This document shows, piece by piece, positions 7,667 to 39,392 of a stretch of DNA of 39,392 nt. A model generated the notes under the pieces. That model was not told the origin of the DNA. It ran no database searches and saw nothing but the letters and a program-made list of their open reading frames with translations. The position numbers and the translations under genes were made by a program. Every line of letters begins with the position of its first letter. The first letter of the stretch is position 1. The DNA comes from Chloroflexota bacterium (GTDB lineage: Bacteria; Chloroflexota; Anaerolineae; Anaerolineales; UBA11858), in the NCBI GenBank assembly GCA_030609055.1, contig JAUWCZ010000008.1:1-39392 (forward strand). Reading direction: 5' to 3'.

Positions 7667-9229
7667 ATGATCCAAATTAACGGAAGCTCACTGACAATCG
7701 AAGAAATAAAACTGTTAGCCGTTGAGAACGAACCAGTCTCCTTATCCCAGAATGCAAAAAAAACAGTTCAACGCTCCCGTCGTTGGGTCGATGAGATTAT
7801 CAGTCAGGGTAAACCAATTTATGGTATCAATACTGGTTTTGGAATTTTTGCTGATCGGCAGATTTCAAGCCATGAATCCAGGCAACTAAGCCGCAATCTG
7901 ATTCTCAGTCATGCTGTTGGAACAGGGGTTCCATTGCCAAAAGAGGTTGTCCGTGCGGCTATGTTAATTCGCGCGAACACGCTGGCAAAAGGTTTTTCAG
8001 GTGTGCGATCATCCTTGATTGAAACCATGCTGGAAATGCTGAATCGTGGTGTCCATCCAATCATCCCTTCCCAGGGATCGCTTGGATCTTCTGGAGATCT
8101 TGCGCCTCTTTCTCATCTTGGATTGGTGTTATCAACTGATGAAGATGATTTAGATGAGCAATCCGGTTACGCAGAATTTCAAGGCACTATTATGAGCGGG
8201 AAGAAAGCAATGAAGAAAGCTGGAATTCCGCGTATTATCCTAGAAGCCAAAGAAGGAATTGCATTAACAAACGGAGCAACTTTTTCTGCAGCCATTGCTG
8301 CTCTTGCTTGCAATGATATAGAAAATCTCCTCTCTGTGGCTGAAATCGCCTTAGCAATGACTTTAGAGGCGTTATTAGGTATCTCAAGCGCCTTTGATCC
8401 TCGGATCCATAAATCCCGACAGCATCCTGGACAAATCACTGTCGCTGAAAATATAAGGGCACTTACCAAAGACAGCACCCTTCTGGATTCTACAAATCGG
8501 ATCCAAGACGCCTATTCACTGCGGTGTAGTCCCCAAGTGCATGGACCCGCCCGGGAAATCCTTGCGTTTGCAGCTGATGTCATTTCCAGAGAAATCAACG
8601 CAGCCACAGATAACCCGTTATTATTTGGAGAAGGGGAAGCAATTTCGGGAGGTAACTTTCACGGTGAACCAATCGGATTGGTGATGGATTATCTGGGTAT
8701 CGCTATGACTGAGATTTCTGGCATCTCTGAGAGGCGCATCTTCCGGTTATTAGACAACCGTTTAAATGAAAACCTCCCTTCAATGCTGGTCGATCGGCAC
8801 GAGGATGCTGGGTTAAATTCTGGGATGATGATGCCTCAATATACGGCTGCGTCCCTGGTACTTGAAAATCGATCCCTGTCAACACCAGATAGCATTCACT
8901 CACTCCCCACATCGGCTGCCCAGGAAGATCATAACGCGAATTCCCTGACGGCCGCGAGACACACGCGGCAGATCCTTACCAACACGACCCACGTGCTGGC
9001 GATTGAACTGTACACAGCAGCCCGGGCTCTTGATCTCCGGCTTCGAGATTTACCCCAGGCGAAACTTGGAAGGGGGACCTTAGCAGCATTCCAATCTATC
9101 AGAAAAAGCGTTATCTATCATCCTACGGACACGTTATGGGGACCGGAAATTGACGCTGTCCGTAAATTAATTGAGACGAGGGAAATATCCTCCGCTGTAG
9201 CTGGCTCCCTCCCAAAATCAACCCAGTAG
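7667..9229 (+). CDS. hutH: Histidine ammonia-lyase
   Basis: MIO-dependent aromatic amino acid lyase, most likely converting histidine to urocanate. The YGINTGFG motif (Y52), the SHAVG motif expected for the histidine-specific branch, TNGATFSAAI, the AYSLRCSPQVHG block and QEDHN are all present. The 520-residue length fits. The tripeptide that cyclises into MIO is normally Ala-Ser-Gly; here it reads Ser-Ser-Gly (residues 141-143, in GSLGSSGDLAPLSH). No hutU, hutI or hutG lies nearby, so the pathway context is missing. The SD is weak (GAGG about 12 bases upstream). Confidence 0.93.
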   Translation: MIQINGSSLTIEEIKLLAVENEPVSLSQNAKKTVQRSRRWVDEIISQGKPIYGINTGFGIFADRQISSHESRQLSRNLILSHAVGTGVPLPKEVVRAAMLIRANTLAKGFSGVRSSLIETMLEMLNRGVHPIIPSQGSLGSSGDLAPLSHLGLVLSTDEDDLDEQSGYAEFQGTIMSGKKAMKKAGIPRIILEAKEGIALTNGATFSAAIAALACNDIENLLSVAEIALAMTLEALLGISSAFDPRIHKSRQHPGQITVAENIRALTKDSTLLDSTNRIQDAYSLRCSPQVHGPAREILAFAADVISREINAATDNPLLFGEGEAISGGNFHGEPIGLVMDYLGIAMTEISGISERRIFRLLDNRLNENLPSMLVDRHEDAGLNSGMMMPQYTAASLVLENRSLSTPDSIHSLPTSAAQEDHNANSLTAARHTRQILTNTTHVLAIELYTAARALDLRLRDLPQAKLGRGTLAAFQSIRKSVIYHPTDTLWGPEIDAVRKLIETREISSAVAGSLPKSTQ

Positions 9230-9264
9230 GTGTTCAGAACAAGGCAGGAATTAGGAAGGTGGAG

Positions 9265-9696
9265 ATGGAGAATTGCCCCTTTTGTAAAATATTGACGGGA
9301 GAACTGCCCAGCACCCTTGTTTATTCGGATGAGATCTGTACAGCCATGATGGATATCCAACCCTTCAACCCTGGTCATCTGCTGGTCATCCCTAACGAGC
9401 ATATATCAGGTTTCTCCGATCTGCCGCCCGAGACAGGAAAACACATCTTTGGGATAGCACAGAAATTAGCCCAGGCGCTACAAATGAGCGGAATCCAATC
9501 TGATGGGATTAACCTTTTCCTTGCAGACGGAAAGGCTGCAATGCAGGAGGTCCCTCATTTTCATTTGCATATCATACCCCGCTTTGAAGGAGATGGATTT
9601 GAGTTTAGATTCAGTCCCCGCTACTTAGAACTCCCAACCAGAGATGAATTGGAAAAGAATGCCCATCACATACAACAGGCATTGAATATCGACTAA
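9265..9696 (+). CDS. HIT family nucleotide hydrolase/transferase
   Basis: Small histidine-triad protein, probably acting on phosphoramidate or dinucleoside-type substrates. The triad HFHLHIIPR (H98, H100, H102) is intact, and the N-terminal CPFCKIL looks like half of the zinc site found in HinT/Fhit-like members. I prefer ATG at 9265 over the track's GTG at 9259 because AGGAAGG lies five bases before the ATG but only two from the GTG. It begins 35 bp after hutH and may share its transcript. Confidence 0.93.
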   Translation: MENCPFCKILTGELPSTLVYSDEICTAMMDIQPFNPGHLLVIPNEHISGFSDLPPETGKHIFGIAQKLAQALQMSGIQSDGINLFLADGKAAMQEVPHFHLHIIPRFEGDGFEFRFSPRYLELPTRDELEKNAHHIQQALNID

Positions 9697-19955: not shown

Positions 19956-21161
19956 ATGGCCGTGAATGATATTCCTCAACATCCACCTTTCACAGCAGAA
20001 TTCAAAGAGAGTTTGTTTAATATTCCTGAGGGAGAAAAAATCCAAACTTGCCTGCAATGTGCCTGCTGTAGTGGTGTCTGTCCTTTTGGTTTTGCGATGG
20101 AAATTCCTCCCGGCAGGATGATTGCCTGGATGCGGGCGGGGATTCTGGATGAAATGCTGGAATCTGATTCTGTCTGGATGTGTGTATCTTGTTATGCCTG
20201 TACTGAAGTTTGTCCAAAAGGAATCCCCGTTACTCTTGCCCTGATGACCAGGGCTAAAGAAGAAGCTCTTCTGGCAGGTAATGTACCCACAGAACTCCAA
20301 AGCGCTTTGGAATTCTCAGATCAATACAGTAATCCTCTGGGAGAATCTTCCCGTAAACGAGCAGATTGGGCAGAGGAATTAGATTTTGAGATCCCCATTA
20401 TAAGAAAGGTAAAACGCCCTGTAGATGTTTTATGGTTTGTAGGAGATTATGCCTCCTACCATCCGCGAGTAAAAAATGTAACCAAGGCATTTGCTATCTT
20501 ACTCAATAAATTAGGGATAGATTTTGGCATTCTCGGTTCAGATGAGCATAGCGATGGAGATTCGCAAAGGCTTGCCGGCGAAAGGGGTTTGTTCGAAAAG
20601 TTGGCTGAAAAGAATGCCAAAATCCTCAGCCGATGCGAATTTAATGAAATCATAACCACCGATCCCCATGCTTACAATGCGTTCAAGAACGAGTATCCCC
20701 AGCTAGGATTCGATTTTCCAGTGCGACATTATACAGAATTCCTGGTTGATCATCTGGACGAGATAACACCGCTTTTCAAGGAAAATGGAAAGGCAAAGGT
20801 GGCATTTCACGATCCCTGCTACCTCGGACGAGTCAATAAAATCTACGAAGCTCCCCGCCAGCTGATTGAAGCGATACCTGGTGTAGAACTTGTTGAAATG
20901 GCACACAACAAATCCACTAGTTTATGTTGTGGCGGTGGTGGTGGAGGAATGTGGCTGGACGGTTTCCGTTGGGAAAAAGCCGAGTACAGATTATCAGAAT
21001 GGAGAATAAAAGAGGCAGTTGCAGTCAAGGCGGATATTTTGGCGGTTAGCTGCCCTTACGAACCCCCTCGTTTTGAAGATGCAACAAAAGCAATTGCAGG
21101 AGCAAAAAAAATGCTGGTTAAGGACATTGTGGAACTAATAGTTGATGCAATAGACATTTGA
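19956..21161 (+). CDS. Soluble HdrD-like iron-sulfur oxidoreductase
   Basis: Fe-S protein of 401 residues related to HdrD, GlpC and FadF. Two [4Fe-4S] motifs occur at C32-C35-C38-C42 and C76-C79-C82-C86. The rest corresponds to two CCG-type domains. The first has lost its cysteines (FVGDYASYHPR, SDGDSQRLAGE, TTDPHAYN). The second keeps C288, C324-C325 and C366 but ends CPYE instead of CPxC, so the final ligand is missing. No membrane helix is present. SD AGGAGGG. It heads the operon, 11 bp before etfB, and its C-terminal two thirds are clearly paralogous to the membrane protein three genes on. I infer electron exchange with ETF or a soluble partner of the quinone oxidoreductase. Confidence 0.85.
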   Translation: MAVNDIPQHPPFTAEFKESLFNIPEGEKIQTCLQCACCSGVCPFGFAMEIPPGRMIAWMRAGILDEMLESDSVWMCVSCYACTEVCPKGIPVTLALMTRAKEEALLAGNVPTELQSALEFSDQYSNPLGESSRKRADWAEELDFEIPIIRKVKRPVDVLWFVGDYASYHPRVKNVTKAFAILLNKLGIDFGILGSDEHSDGDSQRLAGERGLFEKLAEKNAKILSRCEFNEIITTDPHAYNAFKNEYPQLGFDFPVRHYTEFLVDHLDEITPLFKENGKAKVAFHDPCYLGRVNKIYEAPRQLIEAIPGVELVEMAHNKSTSLCCGGGGGGMWLDGFRWEKAEYRLSEWRIKEAVAVKADILAVSCPYEPPRFEDATKAIAGAKKMLVKDIVELIVDAIDI

Positions 21162-22945: not shown

Positions 22946-24943
22946 ATGCCTGAACGAATTGATTATTGGGGTATCCCCCATCAATGGGGTTCACCGAGCA
23001 TTTTAGTTTATTCGGTGATGTTTCTTGCTGGTGCAATCCTTATTTTCCGATTTTACTTGCGAGCCCGACTATGGTGGAAAGTAGGCCGCCCAGAATCACG
23101 CTGGAACAAACTGCACATCAGATTATATAACCTGATTAAATATTCCATTGTCCAAACGCGCGTTTTAAGACAAAAATATCCGGGAATAATGCATATCGCC
23201 TTGGCCTGGAGTTTTTTCATCTTCTTTTTAGGAACAGCCCTGGCTACCATAGATTCCCACTTTTTCAAATTCTTAAACGGTACGGTTTTTTCTCTCTACA
23301 AGCTGACACTTGATCTATTTACGGTGGTATTTATTGTGGGTGCAATCCTGGCAATCTACCGCAGATATGTGACAAAACCGGAAAGATTAACGTACCAGCC
23401 GCAATTTACCTGGTCACTTATTTTGCTGACTGTAATTGTTTTTAGCGGAATAACAACGGAATCTCTCAGGCTTGCCGTTGAACAACCCATAAATGGTGTT
23501 TGGTCACCCCTGGGATGGTTGATAGCCCAGGCCTTCCTTTTCACAGGCGCTTCAGAGATGACATTAACCAACTGGCATCTTGGAATCTGGTTAGGACACT
23601 TGTTGACAGCCGCGTTTACTGTTATCACTCTGCCGGTTGGATCCCTGCTGCACATATTAACTGGCCCTGTAAATATCTTTTTCTCAGAATTGGACCGGCC
23701 AATGGGTCAACTCCCACCCACGCCAACCGGCAGGGACGGTCAACCCGTTTATGTAAGCATGTTAAATGAGCTCACCTGGAAACAAATCCTCAACGGAGAT
23801 GCCTGCACGGAATGCGGACGTTGTCAGGATATATGTCCCGCTTATGGAGCGGGCTTGCCTCTCAATCCGAAAGATTTGATTCTGGGAATCAGGGAAATGC
23901 TTGAAGAAACTAAAGCATCCCCCAAAGAAAACCGGTATGACCGAAGCTTGTTGGAAAATCCCAAACTCAGTAAAGAGGTGATGTGGTCCTGTACAACTTG
24001 TGCTGCTTGCATCACAGAATGTCCTATCCTGGTTGAACACATAGATACAATCATTGAGATCCGGCGACATCTGGTGATTGAAGGGATGATAGATTCAGAA
24101 CTGCAGGATGCATTGACAAACCTAGGTCAATACGGAAACTCGTTTGGCCAATCTCCTCGTAAACGTGCCCAATGGACCCAGGAATTCGATCCTCCAATTA
24201 AAGACGCAACCAGAGAACCTGTCAAGTATCTCTGGTTTGTAGGTGATTATGCATCCTACAATCCTGCTCTCGCTGAGATGACCACCAAAACTGCCACAGT
24301 ATTTAACCAGGTAGGTTTGGATTTTGGCGTTATGTATAAGGGAGAAAACCACTCTGGAAACGATGTTAGGCGCGTTGGAGAGGAAGGATTGTACGAGATG
24401 CTAGTCGAAAAGAATCTTTCCGCACTTGACCGGTGCCAATATCAGACCATTATCACCACAGATCCGCATACCTATAATACCCTGGTCAATGAATATCCCT
24501 TCCCTGAACCGCAGACTATCTTACACTACAGCGAGTTATTGGCGCAACTAATCAGGGACGGGAGGTTGCAGTTCTCGAATCCTCTAAACTACAGAGTAAC
24601 CTTTCACGATCCCTGCTATCTAGGCCGTTATAACGGAGTTTATGATGCTCCCCGCTTTGTGATCAAGTCTACCGGCTGTGAACTGGTAGAAATGCCCCGA
24701 AATAGGGATCTAGCATTGTGCTGCGGTGCAGGCGGAGGTCGAATATGGATGGAGGAAGGCAATATTCAAGAACGCCCCAGTGAGTCCAGGATTCGGGAGG
24801 CAGTTAAGTTGGACGGCATAGAGCACTTTATCGTTTCCTGTCCTAAAGATATCACGATGTATCAGGATGCAGTAAAAACAACCGGGCATGAAGCTGACAT
24901 TTCGGTTAAGGATCTGATTGAGCTGGTCGTAGAGGCTTTATAG
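22946..24943 (+). CDS. Membrane HdrD/FadF-like ETF:menaquinone oxidoreductase
   Basis: Three-part protein of 665 residues. Residues 1-245 hold about six membrane helices of the NarI/HdrE-like cytochrome b type, with candidate haem ligands H83 (YPGIMH), H211/H218 and H236. Two [4Fe-4S] motifs follow: CTECGRCQDICP (287-298) and CTTCAACITECP (349-360). The C-terminal CCG region is homologous to the soluble protein at 19956. Its first CCG domain lacks cysteines (GDYASYNPA, TTDPHTYN) and its second keeps HDPCYLG and LCCGAGGG but ends CPKD. Proteins of this plan next to etfAB act as ETF:menaquinone oxidoreductases, which I infer here. Confidence 0.88.
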   Translation: MPERIDYWGIPHQWGSPSILVYSVMFLAGAILIFRFYLRARLWWKVGRPESRWNKLHIRLYNLIKYSIVQTRVLRQKYPGIMHIALAWSFFIFFLGTALATIDSHFFKFLNGTVFSLYKLTLDLFTVVFIVGAILAIYRRYVTKPERLTYQPQFTWSLILLTVIVFSGITTESLRLAVEQPINGVWSPLGWLIAQAFLFTGASEMTLTNWHLGIWLGHLLTAAFTVITLPVGSLLHILTGPVNIFFSELDRPMGQLPPTPTGRDGQPVYVSMLNELTWKQILNGDACTECGRCQDICPAYGAGLPLNPKDLILGIREMLEETKASPKENRYDRSLLENPKLSKEVMWSCTTCAACITECPILVEHIDTIIEIRRHLVIEGMIDSELQDALTNLGQYGNSFGQSPRKRAQWTQEFDPPIKDATREPVKYLWFVGDYASYNPALAEMTTKTATVFNQVGLDFGVMYKGENHSGNDVRRVGEEGLYEMLVEKNLSALDRCQYQTIITTDPHTYNTLVNEYPFPEPQTILHYSELLAQLIRDGRLQFSNPLNYRVTFHDPCYLGRYNGVYDAPRFVIKSTGCELVEMPRNRDLALCCGAGGGRIWMEEGNIQERPSESRIREAVKLDGIEHFIVSCPKDITMYQDAVKTTGHEADISVKDLIELVVEAL

Positions 24944-30102: not shown

Positions 30103-33100
30103 ATGAATGATACTAAATCACCCCCTACCCCCAAAGAAAAGGTTGGTGTCTACATCTGCCACTGTGGAACGAACATAGCCAAAGTAGTGGATGTAGTAGA
30201 AGTAGCAAAATGGGCTGAAAAAAATCCCCATGTTGAGATTTCACGTGAAAACAAATTCATGTGCTCCAGCCTTGGACAGGAACTCATTGAACAAGATATC
30301 AAAGAGAAAGGATTAACAAGGATTGTTGTAGCTTCCTGTTCGCCCCACATGCATGAAAGAACATTTCGAACTGCTACAGAAAACGGGGGATTAAACCCCT
30401 TTTTGTTCGAAATGGCAAATATCCGGGAGCACGATTCCTGGACTACCGATGACGAAGAAGCCGCAACCCAAAAAGCAAAGGCACTGGTTAATGGCGCGAT
30501 TGAACGGGTTGTCCACCATCAACCGCTGGAACATATACCGGTAGAAATCAATCCCAACACCCTGATAGTTGGAGGTGGAATCGCTGGGATCACCGCAGCG
30601 CTGGAATTAGCGGATGGAGGAAACCAGGTCTATCTGGTAGAAAAGCAGCCATCCATTGGCGGCCATATGGCGCAGTTGGACAAAACATTTCCAACACTGG
30701 ACTGTTCTGCTTGCATCCTTACTCCCAAGATGTCAGACGTGGGCAACCATCCCAATATTGAGTTAATGACTTACAGTGAGGTGGAGTCGGTTGATGGGTT
30801 TATTGGGAATTTCGATGTTACCGTGAGGAAAAAAACAAGCTCTGTCAATGAAAAATGCACCGCGTGTTCAGACTGTGAGGAAATCTGTCCTGTTATCGTA
30901 TCCTCCGAGTTTGACGTTGGCATGGGTACAAGAACTGCGATATACCGTCCATTTCCTCAAGCAATTCCTAATACATATACTCTTTCACGAACAACGGATG
31001 ACTCCCAATGTGTTGCCGGATGCCCCATTCACCAAAACGCCCATGGCTACATTTCCCTAATTGCAGAAGGAAAATATGAAGAAGCCGTGAAACTCATAGT
31101 TGAGGATAATCCCCTTCCGGGAATTTGTGGTCGTGCTTGCGCGCATCCCTGTGAAGATGTATGCGACCGGGGAAAGGTCGATGAACCCATCTCAATCGCT
31201 TTTTTGAAGCGATTTGCAATGGATAAGGTCGGTGATTATGAATTACTTCGACCGGAAAAAGAGCGAAAAGAACGGGTTGGGATTGTTGGTTCTGGTCCTT
31301 CAGGTCTCGCCTGCGCCTATGATTTAAGAAAGAATGGTTATCAAGTTAAGATCTTCGAAGCATTGCCAGCTGCCGGAGGTATGTTAGCTGTAGGAATTCC
31401 AGAGTACCGGCTTCAAAGTGCTCAGCTTAAAAAAGAAATCGGCAAAATAAAAGATATCGGTGTAGATATCCAGCTTAATACGAAAGTAGGTGAAGATATC
31501 ACTCTGGAAGAGCTAGAAAAGCAATATGATGCAGTGTATATTGCCACAGGTGCCCATGAAGAAAGAAAGATCGGAATACCTGGAGAAGATTTAGCTGGTG
31601 TATTAAGTGGTATCAAGTTCTTAAGAGATGTTAGGCTGGGAAATAAGGTCAAATTAGGTGATAACGTTATCGTGGTTGGAGGTGGTGACTCGGCTATCGA
31701 CACTGCCCGGACAGCCAAACGACTGGGCGTGAAGAACGTCACCATGGTATACAGACGAAGCAGAAAGGAGATGCCAGCTGATTTTGATGAGATAGAAGAG
31801 GCGCTCCAGGAAGGAATAAATATTGAATTCCTAACCAACCCGGTCGAGGTTAAAGGAAAGAAAACTGTAGAGGAAGTAACACTCCAGCGGATGGAACTTG
31901 GTACACCCGATGAAAGTGGTCGGCGAAGACCAATACCAATCGAAGGTTCTGAATTCGATGTTCCTTGCGATAACATCATCATCACCATTGGACAAAGACC
32001 CGATATTGGATCTCTGAAACTAAAAACCAAGGACTGGGGCGGTGTTGAGGTGGATGAAGTCACTTTGCAGACCAGTAAGAAAAAAGTGTTTGCAGGTGGC
32101 GACTGTGTTGTAGGCCCAGACACAATTGTTGGGGCTATGGCACTTGGCAAAACAGCCGCCGAATCAATCCACCGCATGTTTGAGAAACTCGATATGTATG
32201 CGGGTCGAGAAAAAGAAGGAGCCTATCTTAGCAACATTGAAGTTGATATTTCTGGAAGAGAAAAAGCACCTAGAGCCAGGATTCCCACCATTCCCGCTAA
32301 AGAAAGAAGTAGTTTTAAAGAAGTAAATCTAGGGTTCACAGAAGAAGCTGCCCAACAAGAAGCTAATCGATGCCTGCATTGTTCCATCTGCTGCGACTGC
32401 CATTTGTGCACAACTGTTTGTGAGCCAGATGCCATTGATTATTCCATGGAGGATGAGATCGTCGACATCGATGTTGGAAATATCATTATCGCCACTGGAT
32501 ATGAGTTGTTCGATACCCGGCAGATTCCCCAATATGGATATGGGCGTTTGGATAACGTGTTCACCAGTCTCGAATTTGAACGGATGGTGAACGCATCCGG
32601 ACCCACGGAGGGGAAAATTGTTCTCCGTGATTTTGAGTCCGCCCCTGAAAGTGTAGCTATCGTTCATTGTGTGGGATCAAGGGATGAGAACTATCATAAG
32701 TACTGTTCCCAGGTCTGCTGCATGTACTCCCTGAAGTTTGCCCATCTGGTACATGAACGTTTGCCAGATGCTCAAGTATACAACTGCTATATCGATATGC
32801 GGACTCCGGGAAAGGGCTACGAAGAATTCTACGACCGACTTCTCAAAGAAGGTACACACTTCATTCGCGGGAAAGTCGCCGAGGTTACAGACTCAGCCCG
32901 CACTCAGGAAGAGGAAGGTAAGTTGATTGTTCAGGTTGAAGATACCTTGATTGGACGGCAACGCCGAGTTCCTGTAGATATGGTCATCCTCAGCCCTGCA
33001 ATGGAAGCCCAACCAGACTCAAAAGAGACCTCCCAATTGTTCAAGATGGGCTGCGATTTTGATGGATTCTTTATAGAAAAACATCCCAAGCTTGACCCAA

Positions 33101-33516
33101 TAGCAACAATGACAGAAGGAGTCTTTCTTGCCGGTGCTTGCCAAGGTCCCAAAGATGTTCCGGACTCGGTAGCGCAGGGGGCAGCAGCGGCATCCAGGGT
33201 AGCGAGTCTTATCAGCCGGGGAACTGTAATGATGGAACCCATCCGGGCCAGTATCGATGCTGAAGCCTGCTCCGGGTGCAAGATCTGCAACACTATGTGT
33301 CCCTACAACGCTATTGAATTCATCGAAGAAGATGGTGTATCACATGTAATCACAGCACTCTGCCAAGGCTGCGGCACATGCGTAGCAGCTTGTCCCAGCG
33401 GCGTAATAACAGGTGCCCACTTCACTAATGATCAACTAATTTCCCAAATCGAAGGATTATTATGGGATATGCGAGAACTGGAAGCAGTTCCGGCAGGGAA
33501 GGAGGAGAAAAGATGA
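30103..33516 (+). CDS. hdrA: HdrA with inserted NfnB/GltD-type NAD(P)H oxidoreductase module
   Basis: Flavoprotein of 1137 residues, far longer than usual HdrA (about 650). Residues 1-300 are HdrA: GVYICHCGTNI, SCSPHMHERTF, FAD loop GGGIAG (157-162), LDCSACILTPKM and a cluster motif CTACSDCEEICP (252-263). Residues about 303-765 are a complete NfnB/GltD-like module: Cys-rich CVAGCPIH and CGRACAHPCEDVC, FAD loop GSGPSGLACAYDL, NAD(P)H loop GGGDSAIDTARTAKRLG with VYRRSRKEMP, and AGGDCVVGPDTIVGAMALGK. HdrA then resumes with CHLCTTVCEPDAID and ends in two ferredoxin motifs (CSGCKICNTMCP, CQGCGTCVAACP). The frame is open throughout, so the fusion is not a sequencing join. I infer a bifurcating enzyme with two FADs and an extra pyridine nucleotide site. 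SD AGGAG; overlaps mvhD by four bases. Confidence 0.93.
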   Translation: MNDTKSPPTPKEKVGVYICHCGTNIAKVVDVVEVAKWAEKNPHVEISRENKFMCSSLGQELIEQDIKEKGLTRIVVASCSPHMHERTFRTATENGGLNPFLFEMANIREHDSWTTDDEEAATQKAKALVNGAIERVVHHQPLEHIPVEINPNTLIVGGGIAGITAALELADGGNQVYLVEKQPSIGGHMAQLDKTFPTLDCSACILTPKMSDVGNHPNIELMTYSEVESVDGFIGNFDVTVRKKTSSVNEKCTACSDCEEICPVIVSSEFDVGMGTRTAIYRPFPQAIPNTYTLSRTTDDSQCVAGCPIHQNAHGYISLIAEGKYEEAVKLIVEDNPLPGICGRACAHPCEDVCDRGKVDEPISIAFLKRFAMDKVGDYELLRPEKERKERVGIVGSGPSGLACAYDLRKNGYQVKIFEALPAAGGMLAVGIPEYRLQSAQLKKEIGKIKDIGVDIQLNTKVGEDITLEELEKQYDAVYIATGAHEERKIGIPGEDLAGVLSGIKFLRDVRLGNKVKLGDNVIVVGGGDSAIDTARTAKRLGVKNVTMVYRRSRKEMPADFDEIEEALQEGINIEFLTNPVEVKGKKTVEEVTLQRMELGTPDESGRRRPIPIEGSEFDVPCDNIIITIGQRPDIGSLKLKTKDWGGVEVDEVTLQTSKKKVFAGGDCVVGPDTIVGAMALGKTAAESIHRMFEKLDMYAGREKEGAYLSNIEVDISGREKAPRARIPTIPAKERSSFKEVNLGFTEEAAQQEANRCLHCSICCDCHLCTTVCEPDAIDYSMEDEIVDIDVGNIIIATGYELFDTRQIPQYGYGRLDNVFTSLEFERMVNASGPTEGKIVLRDFESAPESVAIVHCVGSRDENYHKYCSQVCCMYSLKFAHLVHERLPDAQVYNCYIDMRTPGKGYEEFYDRLLKEGTHFIRGKVAEVTDSARTQEEEGKLIVQVEDTLIGRQRRVPVDMVILSPAMEAQPDSKETSQLFKMGCDFDGFFIEKHPKLDPIATMTEGVFLAGACQGPKDVPDSVAQGAAAASRVASLISRGTVMMEPIRASIDAEACSGCKICNTMCPYNAIEFIEEDGVSHVITALCQGCGTCVAACPSGVITGAHFTNDQLISQIEGLLWDMRELEAVPAGKEEKR

Positions 33517-37325: not shown

Positions 37326-38294
37326 ATGAAAAGTATCTACCGTAAGATCTTTTTTAGTATCCTTACCTTGAGTCTGCTCCTTTTTTCTGCTGCAGTTGTT
37401 CATGCCTACACTACTGCGGGTGATGAAAAGTCAATCCAAGTAGCCGGAGATCAACCACCGCAATCTACTGTAGTTAAACCTGAGAATGATACCTGCATAC
37501 AATGCCATCTGGACGGCTCATTTACGAGTCTTTGGACTCCTCTTGCGCGTTGGGCGGTTTTTGGTTCAGCCGGTGTAGTCTTTTTGTTTGGTATCGCTCG
37601 CAGCGCAAGTGTTTGGAGAACCAGATCTGAATGGATTCCTCTGCCCAAACGCTTGTCAGCCTGGGTGGATGACCGGTATCAGGTATCAGATTTCCTTAAA
37701 CCCATTCTCAGTAAACCCGTACCTGAGTGGCAGAGACGCTGGTGGTATTGTCTGGGGGGGTTAACGTTCTTCTTCTTTATTGTTCAAGGAATGACCGGGA
37801 TTATGTTGGCTTTTTATTACAAACCTACCCCAGCAGAAGCCTATGCCAGTATTCAATTCATCGAAAACGAGGTCTTGTTAGGATCCGCAGTCCGGATGAT
37901 CCACCACTGGTCAGCCAACGCGATGATTGTTCTGGCAGTCGCCCATATGTTGAGAGTCTTTATCATGGGAGCCTATAAACCACCCAGGGAACTCAACTGG
38001 GTGTCCGGTGTGGTTTTAGGGGCAATGACCCTGTTATTTGGATTTACCGGTTATTTACTTCCCTGGGATCAGAGAGCCTACTGGGCAACGACAGTAGGTA
38101 CAGAGATTGCCGGAAGCATACCTGTTATTGGAGAATTGGCTTTGGTTTTTCTGCGAGCTGGATGGAATATCACCAGCCTAACCCTGAGCAGATTCTTTGC
38201 GCTGCATGTCCTAATTTTGCCCCTTATTACTGTAACCACCATGGGAATGCATTTCATCATGGTAAGAAAACAGGGAATCATGAAACCACTCTAA
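37326..38294 (+). CDS. Cytochrome b6-type subunit with N-terminal CxxCH segment
   Basis: Quinol-oxidising cytochrome b of b6 type, 322 residues, with an unusual front end. Residues 1-27 form a signal peptide or helix, then comes a c-type haem site CIQCH (57-61), a helix near 74-92, and a b6-like core from about 130. Core haem ligands are H193 or H194 (RMIHHWSANAM), H207, H294 and H309, with the GFTGYLLPWDQ and FALHVLILPL blocks. C142 in YCLGG aligns with the cysteine that binds the extra haem c(n)/c(i) in b6 proteins. GAGG lies six bases before the ATG. First gene of an operon with the subunit IV and Rieske genes; no cytochrome f or c1 seen. Confidence 0.9.
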   Translation: MKSIYRKIFFSILTLSLLLFSAAVVHAYTTAGDEKSIQVAGDQPPQSTVVKPENDTCIQCHLDGSFTSLWTPLARWAVFGSAGVVFLFGIARSASVWRTRSEWIPLPKRLSAWVDDRYQVSDFLKPILSKPVPEWQRRWWYCLGGLTFFFFIVQGMTGIMLAFYYKPTPAEAYASIQFIENEVLLGSAVRMIHHWSANAMIVLAVAHMLRVFIMGAYKPPRELNWVSGVVLGAMTLLFGFTGYLLPWDQRAYWATTVGTEIAGSIPVIGELALVFLRAGWNITSLTLSRFFALHVLILPLITVTTMGMHFIMVRKQGIMKPL

Positions 38295-38338
38295 CTGGAT
38301 CGAATAGGCTTGTTTTAACGAAAATTAGGAGTCAGCAA

Positions 38339-38734
38339 ATGTCAGAAGAACAAGAAGAAAATAGCGTACCTTTTTATCCTGATCACCTTACCTTGGAAGC
38401 AAAGGTCGCCCTGGTATTCGGGATTCTAGTTGTGCTGACAGGTGTGGTGGGAATGTTTTTACCGGTTGGCCTGGGGGCACCCGCCGATCCGATAGATACC
38501 CCGGTCCACATAAAACCGGAATGGTATTTCCTGTTCCTGTATCAATTACTGAGGTATATACCAAAAACCATTGGAGCTACTGCACCGGTTATCGCAATCC
38601 TCCTCATGGCAGTCTGGCCCTTCCTGGACTCAAAACCTGATTCAACCAAAAAACCAGTCCGGATCAGACTCTGGTTTTCCGTTACTGCCGTCGTTATAAT
38701 CATCGCCCTGACAATTTGGGGGGAGGTTAGCTAA
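38339..38734 (+). CDS. Cytochrome b subunit IV-like protein (PetD-like)
   Basis: Membrane protein of 131 residues matching the C-terminal half of cytochrome b. The Qo-site motif PEWY is at 60-63 (KPEWYFLFLYQLLRYIPK). About three hydrophobic helices are present, at 24-44, 78-96 and 109-128. The track start (38162) lies inside the cytochrome b gene; ATG at 38339 follows AGGAG. Together with the upstream b6-type protein it makes a split cytochrome b. The Rieske gene begins directly after its stop. Confidence 0.92.
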   Translation: MSEEQEENSVPFYPDHLTLEAKVALVFGILVVLTGVVGMFLPVGLGAPADPIDTPVHIKPEWYFLFLYQLLRYIPKTIGATAPVIAILLMAVWPFLDSKPDSTKKPVRIRLWFSVTAVVIIIALTIWGEVS

Positions 38735-39169
38735 ATGAGCGATATTTCTCGCCGTGATTTTATTAACCTGGTAAAGAAGGGTTTAGCTGCTACTGGATTA
38801 ACAGCACTTTTAGCTCCTTTTGTGGCTTACTTCTATCCCCCCAGCCTGGAAGAAAAACCATCAGAACCTGTCAGGGTGGCAAGAGTTGAAGATATCCCGG
38901 CTGGTGAGAGCCTGACAATACCATTTGGTCGGTACCCGGCGATCGTAATTCATACCGAAGAAGGACTAAAAGCATACTCGGCAGTCTGTACGCATTTCTC
39001 ATGTATCGTAAAATGGAACAGCTCAGATAATACTCTTTATTGTCCTTGCCATGAAGGATACTTTGAACCCTTACAAGGAGAAGTGATATCTGGACCTCCT
39101 CCTCTACCGCTGGAAAAAATACCCCTATCTATCGAGAACGGAGAAATATTCATCGGAGGAGCCGCATGA
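38735..39169 (+). CDS. Rieske [2Fe-2S] protein
   Basis: Rieske subunit of the b6-type complex, 144 residues. A Tat-type start SRRDFINLVKKG and one helix (about 15-34) would anchor it outside the membrane. Cluster motifs CTHFSC (C85, H87; C90) and CPCHEG (C103, H106; C105) are complete, including the pair of cysteines for the disulfide. SD GGGGAGG. Its stop overlaps the start of the next gene by four bases (ATGA). Confidence 0.96.
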   Translation: MSDISRRDFINLVKKGLAATGLTALLAPFVAYFYPPSLEEKPSEPVRVARVEDIPAGESLTIPFGRYPAIVIHTEEGLKAYSAVCTHFSCIVKWNSSDNTLYCPCHEGYFEPLQGEVISGPPPLPLEKIPLSIENGEIFIGGAA

Positions 39170-39392
39170 CAACGACTGAAACCCGGATTTCAAAACCCTG
39201 GGCTAGAGTGCGTGATGTGTTTGTTTATGTCCTCGGTCAACTCCGCACAATAATGAAGATTTATCCAGGGATAATGCATTTACTAATCTTCTGGGGGGTG
39301 ATCATCCAGGTTATCGGCACAGCGATAAAGATCATGCAGATGGGATTGTTTGTCCCCTTCATCTGGCCCATATTTTCACAGAATGTATATTT
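39166..39392 (+). CDS. HdrD/FadF-like membrane protein, N-terminal part (runs off window)
   Basis: Only the first 75 codons are visible, not in the ORF track. The sequence TIMKIYPGIMHLLIFWGV followed by VIGTAIKIMQ closely resembles the YPGIMH helix of the membrane HdrD-like protein at 22946, including its candidate haem-ligand His. I therefore expect the same plan: NarI-like membrane domain, two ferredoxin clusters and a CCG domain. It is translationally coupled to the Rieske gene, so it likely belongs to the same complex. Confidence 0.75.
   Translation, partial: MTTTETRISKPWARVRDVFVYVLGQLRTIMKIYPGIMHLLIFWGVIIQVIGTAIKIMQMGLFVPFIWPIFSQNVY

Follow-up and report, generated by a model that had tools for sequence, protein, structure and literature searches.

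An Anaerolineae Rieske/cytochrome b6 operon that includes a gene for an EtfD-like membrane protein

A four-gene operon for a b6-type cytochrome, a subunit IV-like protein, a Rieske protein and an EtfD/HdrD-like membrane protein (HdrM) closes the right end of the window, the whole stretch of 39,392 nucleotides analysed here, and recurs in the same order among Anaerolineae. It looks like a seemingly undescribed wiring of cytoplasmic electrons via menaquinone to periplasmic cytochromes. No paper describing a b6-IV-Rieske-HdrM operon was found in the open-access literature searched, an earlier description elsewhere being possible. From its gene content the operon would work like a menaquinol:cytochrome c reductase provided with its own EtfD-type input enzyme. 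The proposal that this is an Anaerolineae menaquinone enzyme whose Rieske/b core is physically associated with HdrM, electrons running from HdrM to menaquinone and then by a Q cycle to the periplasm, is considered evenly balanced between true and false.

Gene order, contig ends and distribution

Gene order, overlap, cofactor ligands and common clade are features that can be read from the sequences, and those of the window are located as follows.

37326-38294, + strand: b6-type cytochrome, 322 aa (Pfam PF00033 Cytochrome_B, E 1.6e-51)
37494-37508, + strand: CxxCH motif, CIQCH at b6 residues 57-61, predicted c-type heme attachment site, invariant in 35/35 aligned family members
37749-37751, + strand: b6 Cys142 (WWYCLGG), equivalent of the heme ci (cn) cysteine, aligned to YCLGG of b6 in b6f
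38339-38734, + strand: subunit IV-like protein, 131 aa (PF00032 Cytochrom_B_C, E 1.7e-16)
38735-39169, + strand: Rieske protein, 144 aa (PF00355 Rieske, E 5.9e-12)
39166-39392, + strand: HdrM, first 75 residues (84% identity to a 623-aa relative over 75 aa)

The tight linkage of these genes, together with an ATGA overlap of the last pair, had been pointed out in a first-pass annotation, and both are borne out, the linkage by the Pfam matches and the recurring gene order and the overlap at 39166-39169. The true start of subunit IV is 38339, which gives the same length as in relatives, rather than the longer mechanical ORF start at 38162.

The window is the entire contig C91 of a 2.14 Mb assembly (123 contigs, 92% complete), and therefore the HdrM gene is cut by the assembly. 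Although its 75-residue start alone gave no Pfam match, a search of the same genome with a full-length relative located the last 54 aa at G000:C8:1-162 (89% identical to the relative), the middle of the protein falling in the assembly gap between C91 and C8. The join is supported by a sister genome (L033), where the operon is followed by the same downstream genes as on C8. The rightward extension that the first-pass annotation had called for thus yielded the end of the HdrD-like gene and no cytochrome c gene: within 10 kb past the operon, C8 holds no CxxCH-encoding gene, and its next sizeable genes lie on the opposite strand. A cytochrome f gene (petA) was found neither upstream in the window nor in the 10 kb that follow the operon nor, in relatives, between the genes of the core, and no gene for a cytochrome c1/cc subunit was found in the operon, whose sole such feature is the CxxCH stub in b6. 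The earlier statement that cytochrome f and c1 are missing consequently holds for genes, but it overlooked this motif.

When GTDB species genomes were scanned with the b6 N-terminal portion, 43 loci turned up in Chloroflexota, almost all of them from Anaerolineae. Five were left out of the order count because of contig ends or an N-gap, which in L066 begins just past the overlapping ATGA. In all 38 evaluable loci the same four-gene order, which the earlier annotation had proposed searching for, was recovered, with HdrM directly after the Rieske gene and an ATGA/GTGA overlap between them; given this count, gene order and overlap are not due to chance. Matches to the 75-residue HdrM start came from six other genomes of the window's genus and from further genera and families. 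The operon is patchy, being present in 3/396 genomes sampled evenly across the class. The operon HdrM proteins group in a single clade (SH-aLRT 100), outside which fall the other EtfD-like proteins sampled in Chloroflexota, without exception, and no member of this clade was found away from Rieske genes in the genomes searched. Neither the related b6 genes of other phyla (L091-L106) nor the two other b6 genes of the window's genome have an adjoining HdrM.

Two loci depart from the common arrangement. In L054 (SuakinDeep MAG43_1) a REP-type transposase-like gene at 9023-9640 lies between b6 and subunit IV, apparently interrupting the operon. The divergent L089 (1075-5449) has b6 fused to subunit IV, with CxxCH retained and the heme ci cysteine gone, an HdrM with a degenerate CCG1, and two small ORFs preceding the Rieske gene.

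In the window the operon is preceded by an HdrABC-MvhDGA hydrogenase cluster and a maturation protease. This hydrogenase was discarded as a conserved part of the system, since outside the window's genus it adjoins the operon in G015, G019 and G020 alone; at the other loci the operon is on its own, frequently preceded by genes for a sensor kinase and a LuxR-type regulator. The HdrA of the window (30103-33516) has 1137 aa and an internal NAD(P)-binding GltD/NfnB-like domain at about residues 300-700, while a same-genus HdrA (L036) of about 690 aa is apparently without it.

The Rieske/b6 core

The constituents of a Q-cycle core are complete, namely the four b-heme histidines, the PEWY motif, the Rieske ligands and the heme ci cysteine. 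The solved chains closest to the window's b6 are the b6 subunits of b6f (E 1e-61), with whose ligands the bis-His b-heme ligands H193/H207/H294/H309 are aligned, and the 14/15-residue spacing of the histidines is common to the operon b6 and b6f-type complexes. Cys142 is kept in 35/35 of the aligned b6 family, is lost in L089, as mentioned, and is absent from the two other b6 proteins of the window's genome. Subunit IV, whose PDB matches are the cytochrome b C-terminal half and b6f subunit 4, carries PEWY as its Qo motif and, in the alignment of relatives, an invariant Glu20. This residue lies close to the one facing heme ci in b6f, with a register uncertain by one residue; a Glu at the position facing heme ci has been reported for a low-potential heme ci (PMC12954380).

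The N-terminal extension of b6 consists of a signal/TM helix, the CxxCH motif and a second TM helix, followed by the b6 core. The two other b6 proteins of the window's genome have no such motif, and b6 proteins of other phyla lack it at the N-terminus. In general, c-type hemes are attached on the periplasmic side. Taking the b6 N-terminus as cytoplasmic, as in b6f, the motif between the two predicted TM helices would be periplasmic, and a c-type heme is probably built into b6 at this point. No invariant second axial ligand was seen in the alignment of the extension; the heme may have five ligands or draw a sixth from another subunit. Its position was not read from the AlphaFold2 model of b6, which is of low confidence (pLDDT 66.6 overall and <50 around CxxCH).

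The Rieske protein has a twin-Arg-type anchor and the cluster ligands C85, H87, C103 and H106, assigned by family alignment and by alignment with 2e74_D. In the CPCHGSxY motif, Ser is replaced by Gly or Ala and Tyr by Phe in every family member (Gly and Phe in the window), and the same loss of Ser and Tyr is found in the two other Rieske proteins of the window's genome. According to values quoted in PMC12954380, losing Ser or Tyr lowers the potential of the yeast Rieske protein by about 130 or 65 mV, respectively. A low potential is expected because both residues are replaced, and the sequence suggests that the operon cluster is low-potential, as for menaquinol.

With the b6f complexes of cyanobacteria, Heliobacteria and Firmicutes the operon shares split b6 and subunit IV, PEWY, the Rieske protein and the heme ci cysteine. 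In contrast to them it has no gene for cytochrome f or a diheme cytochrome c, but a stub with one c-heme motif on the b6 N-terminus and a gene for an EtfD-like subunit; judged by the missing cytochrome f gene, it does not encode a b6f complex. The nearest named NCBIfam model for the window's b6 is ExtP (261.5 bits, under its cut-off of 290), which belongs to the Geobacter ExtO-ExtP-ExtQ system, where Rieske, cytochrome b and subunit IV-like genes also stand together. That system, however, is linked to multiheme cytochromes and a porin, and no EtfD-like gene is among the products listed in PMC5877670.

The window's genome contains two more Rieske/b6 operons (L006, 5645-8028; L007, 7112-10388), in which subunit IV is fused to a di- or multiheme cytochrome c, and one of which adjoins multiheme cytochromes. 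The genome thus encodes three Rieske/b complexes, and it gave no heme-copper oxidase match. As an acceptor, a heme-copper oxidase was set aside: the window's genus has no credible gene (weak fragments only, in G003), although some relatives possess one.

HdrM and the adjoining flavoprotein

The features of HdrM were taken from full-length relatives; of the window's own protein, 75 N-terminal aa are encoded in the window and 54 C-terminal aa on C8. These relatives (623-635 aa) have Nitrate_red_gam, Fer4 and two CCG domains, that is, a membrane domain of the NarI/EtfD type, a pair of [4Fe-4S] motifs and a pair of CCG motifs, so that the Fe-S/CCG domains anticipated for the partial gene do occur in the family. 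The nearest solved relative is Mycobacterium smegmatis EtfD (9ojn; profile E 3.7e-142), which the AlphaFold2 model of HdrM matches over the whole length with a TM-score of 0.82. By this whole-length homology, the Fe-S module of HdrM is assigned to the cytoplasmic side.

In EtfD a D1-D2-D3-D4-heme b chain leads from the cytoplasm to menaquinone, D1 being a linear [3Fe-4S] cluster with Thr539, and a His capping D2 marks that cluster as non-catalytic; the D1 cysteines are lost in FadF and DgcB (PMC13083937). HdrM has the heme b ligands (His38/His196, equivalent to EtfD His78/241), the eight Fer4 cysteines of both cubane sites, the CCG2 cysteines of the noncubane D2 site and the capping His465, equivalent to EtfD His583. 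This histidine is invariant in operon HdrM, whereas the window's HdrB has CSAC there. At the D1 site HdrM has an Hdr-type Cys427 against Thr539 of EtfD, and the operon proteins, except L089, read CCCCC or CCCCG; the five-Cys CCG1 is found in most of them, and in the window's genus the last Cys is replaced by Gly (CCCCG). Judged by these residues, HdrM is a wire of EtfD type whose first cluster site resembles that of Hdr. The D2 histidine argues that it is not a heterodisulfide reductase, and gene linkage suggests that it may not be an ETF-linked EtfD. In the window etfBA lies about 15 kb upstream with its own FadF, and most operon loci have no etfBA within the flank.

The likeness to EtfD/FadF (PDB 9ojn) comprises the whole-length fold, the heme b ligands, both Fer4 motifs and CCG2 with its capping His. 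HdrM differs in forming its own clade, in the Hdr-type Cys for Thr539, in being encoded with Rieske/b6 instead of etfBA, and in having no long disordered C-terminus. With HdrDE and DsrMK it shares a NarI-like membrane domain with Fer4 and CCG motifs, including two five-Cys CCG motifs in most members, but is set apart from them by the EtfD-type His at D2 and the linkage to a Rieske/b core; no CoM/CoB or two-Cys DsrC partner for HdrM was identified. The FadF-like protein beside etfBA (window 22946-24943) has lost all D1 (CCG1) cysteines (DHSDT), its CCG2 ends in Asp, and it belongs to another subfamily than operon HdrM. A soluble HdrD-like protein (19956-21161) also flanks etfBA.

In 25/32 evaluable loci HdrM is followed by a fifth gene, which encodes an FdhB/FrhB-like flavoprotein and is absent from the window's genus. 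Its product has two conserved Fer4 motifs and matches FdhB of the methanogen FdhAB-HdrABC (formate dehydrogenase-heterodisulfide reductase) complexes with E about 1e-23. FdhB and FrhB are F420-dependent flavoprotein subunits; the operon protein resembles FdhB, but its gene adjoins HdrM. F420 was rejected as a universal donor, CofE being present in 14/21 genomes but missing from G000, the window's own, and from G024 despite the FdhB-like gene there, although this is not decisive. Beside the operon lie dihydrolipoamide dehydrogenase-like genes and, in L060, also an acyltransferase E2-like gene (L060, 31-687 and 8305-9699; L065, 5504-6931), a possible hint as to the donor.

Proposed electron path and alternative readings

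In the preferred scheme, the CCG clusters of HdrM would accept electrons from a cytoplasmic donor, probably presented in most relatives by the adjoining FdhB/FrhB-like flavoprotein, and would pass them through the two cubane [4Fe-4S] clusters and heme b to menaquinone, reduced at the cytoplasmic face. The b6/IV/Rieske core would then oxidise menaquinol at Qo by a Q cycle, one electron being recycled via hemes bL, bH and ci, and the other passing by way of a Rieske cluster of low potential to the one c-type heme on the b6 extension and on to periplasmic cytochromes c. Here we infer heme occupancy, assembly in one particle, direction, donor and final acceptor. The window's genus counts against the scheme in being without the last CCG1 Cys, the donor flavoprotein gene and any credible terminal oxidase.

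The first-pass annotation had proposed an alternative menaquinol complex in which electrons could pass between the b6/Rieske part and an Fe-S module rather than a soluble cytochrome c. The loci do display a Rieske/b6 unit that is conserved, distinct and accompanied by an Fe-S membrane protein of CCG type. The exclusion of cytochrome c, on the other hand, runs against the invariant CxxCH of b6, predicted to be periplasmic, and the placement of the HdrM module in the cytoplasm, as in EtfD. Since the Rieske head and CxxCH would lie across the membrane from the Fe-S chain of HdrM, the two sides could exchange electrons only via menaquinone or via the b hemes of the core and ci. A direct Rieske to Fe-S transfer across the membrane is unlikely on this topology, and coupling by menaquinone or by the cytoplasmic-side heme ci fits better.

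Neighbours in an operon can be separate enzymes on one quinone pool, and the most serious competitor, somewhat improbable in our estimation, is that an EtfD-like menaquinone reductase and a menaquinol:cytochrome c reductase merely share a transcription unit, with the quinone pool as their sole link. EtfD functions alone (PMC13083937), and the window encodes a second EtfD/FadF-like protein, that beside etfBA. Set against two independent enzymes are the strict adjacency with start/stop overlap at all 38 loci and the separate HdrM clade, confined to Rieske loci in the genomes searched. At the opposite extreme would stand a stable five-subunit complex of the Rieske/b6 core with an EtfD/FdhB-like module, in which electrons cross directly at the cytoplasmic face, from heme ci to heme b or Fe-S, linking quinol oxidation to the redox chemistry of a cytoplasmic carrier without free menaquinone, the c-heme stub on b6 being the periplasmic exit. 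This is rated as quite unlikely; if true, it would be a second independent cytoplasm-coupled Rieske/b complex beside the anammox proposal.

In the anammox Rieske/cytochrome b complexes (Kuste4569-4574, Kustd1480-1485), too, the genes of the core accompany those of an Fe-S redox module on the n side, and c hemes lie on the p side; these complexes provide the precedent for a proposed quinol bifurcation through an n-side NAD(P) module (PMC12954380). Applied to the operon, menaquinol would be oxidised at Qo and its two electrons would part: Rieske and heme c would carry the high-potential one to the periplasm, and hemes b and ci would hand the low-potential one to HdrM and the FdhB-like protein, either directly or by way of menaquinone, reducing a cytoplasmic carrier. 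The conserved heme ci cysteine and the cytoplasmic Fe-S/flavin module, always part of the operon, agree with such a scheme. Nevertheless, the anammox system has multiheme c subunits, a module for NAD(P) reduction and a Rieske protein of high potential (about +300 mV, which the scheme needs; PMC12954380), whereas the operon combines a single c-heme motif with a membrane subunit of EtfD type, and its Rieske protein, with Gly/Ala and Phe throughout, is expected to be low-potential. No n-side NAD(P)-reductase subunit was found in the operon, the relatives having only the FdhB/FrhB-like protein, and HdrM looks less like a docked reductase than like EtfD, which reduces menaquinone at a quinone site of its own. 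Bifurcation is thus regarded as unlikely.

Least probable is that HdrM is a true disulfide oxidoreductase of heterodisulfide type, serving for instance a DsrC-type thiol carrier recycled by the upstream HdrABC-Mvh. Consistent with it, the five-Cys CCG1 of most members includes the Hdr-type Cys427 (Thr in EtfD), Mvh/HdrABC genes adjoin the operon in the window's genus, and DsrC occurs in 17/19 operon genomes against 13/59 others (Fisher p 2e-7, kinship ignored). But the invariant His465 caps D2 as in a non-catalytic cluster, CCG1 is incomplete in the window's genus, the Mvh/Hdr linkage is lineage-specific, and the DsrC proteins retain just the final one of the C-terminal Cys pair, so that no internal disulfide is possible. 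With this one C-terminal Cys, a DsrE2/pyridine-nucleotide-disulfide-oxidoreductase-like cluster as surroundings and dsrAB not in view, DsrC was also rejected as a thiol partner in the main reading. The conserved cluster in question (L141, 9101-11840, and similar loci L140-L151) co-occurs with the Rieske/HdrM operon and encodes an ArsR-type regulator, a pyridine-nucleotide-disulfide-oxidoreductase-like protein, possibly of sulfide:quinone type, a Pfam-less protein, a single-cysteine DsrC/TusE-like protein and a DsrE2-like protein.

Complex III relatives differ mostly in their periplasmic cytochromes. A core that always comes with a cytoplasmic-facing EtfD/Hdr-type wire, usually joined by an FdhB-like flavoprotein, and in which a single heme motif on b6 replaces cytochrome f, would mean that the modules feeding and draining the quinone pool can come as one package. 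Such a system would also point to a route of energy conservation in widespread uncultured Anaerolineae without heme-copper oxidases, and would open the function of heme ci to testing in a respiratory setting.
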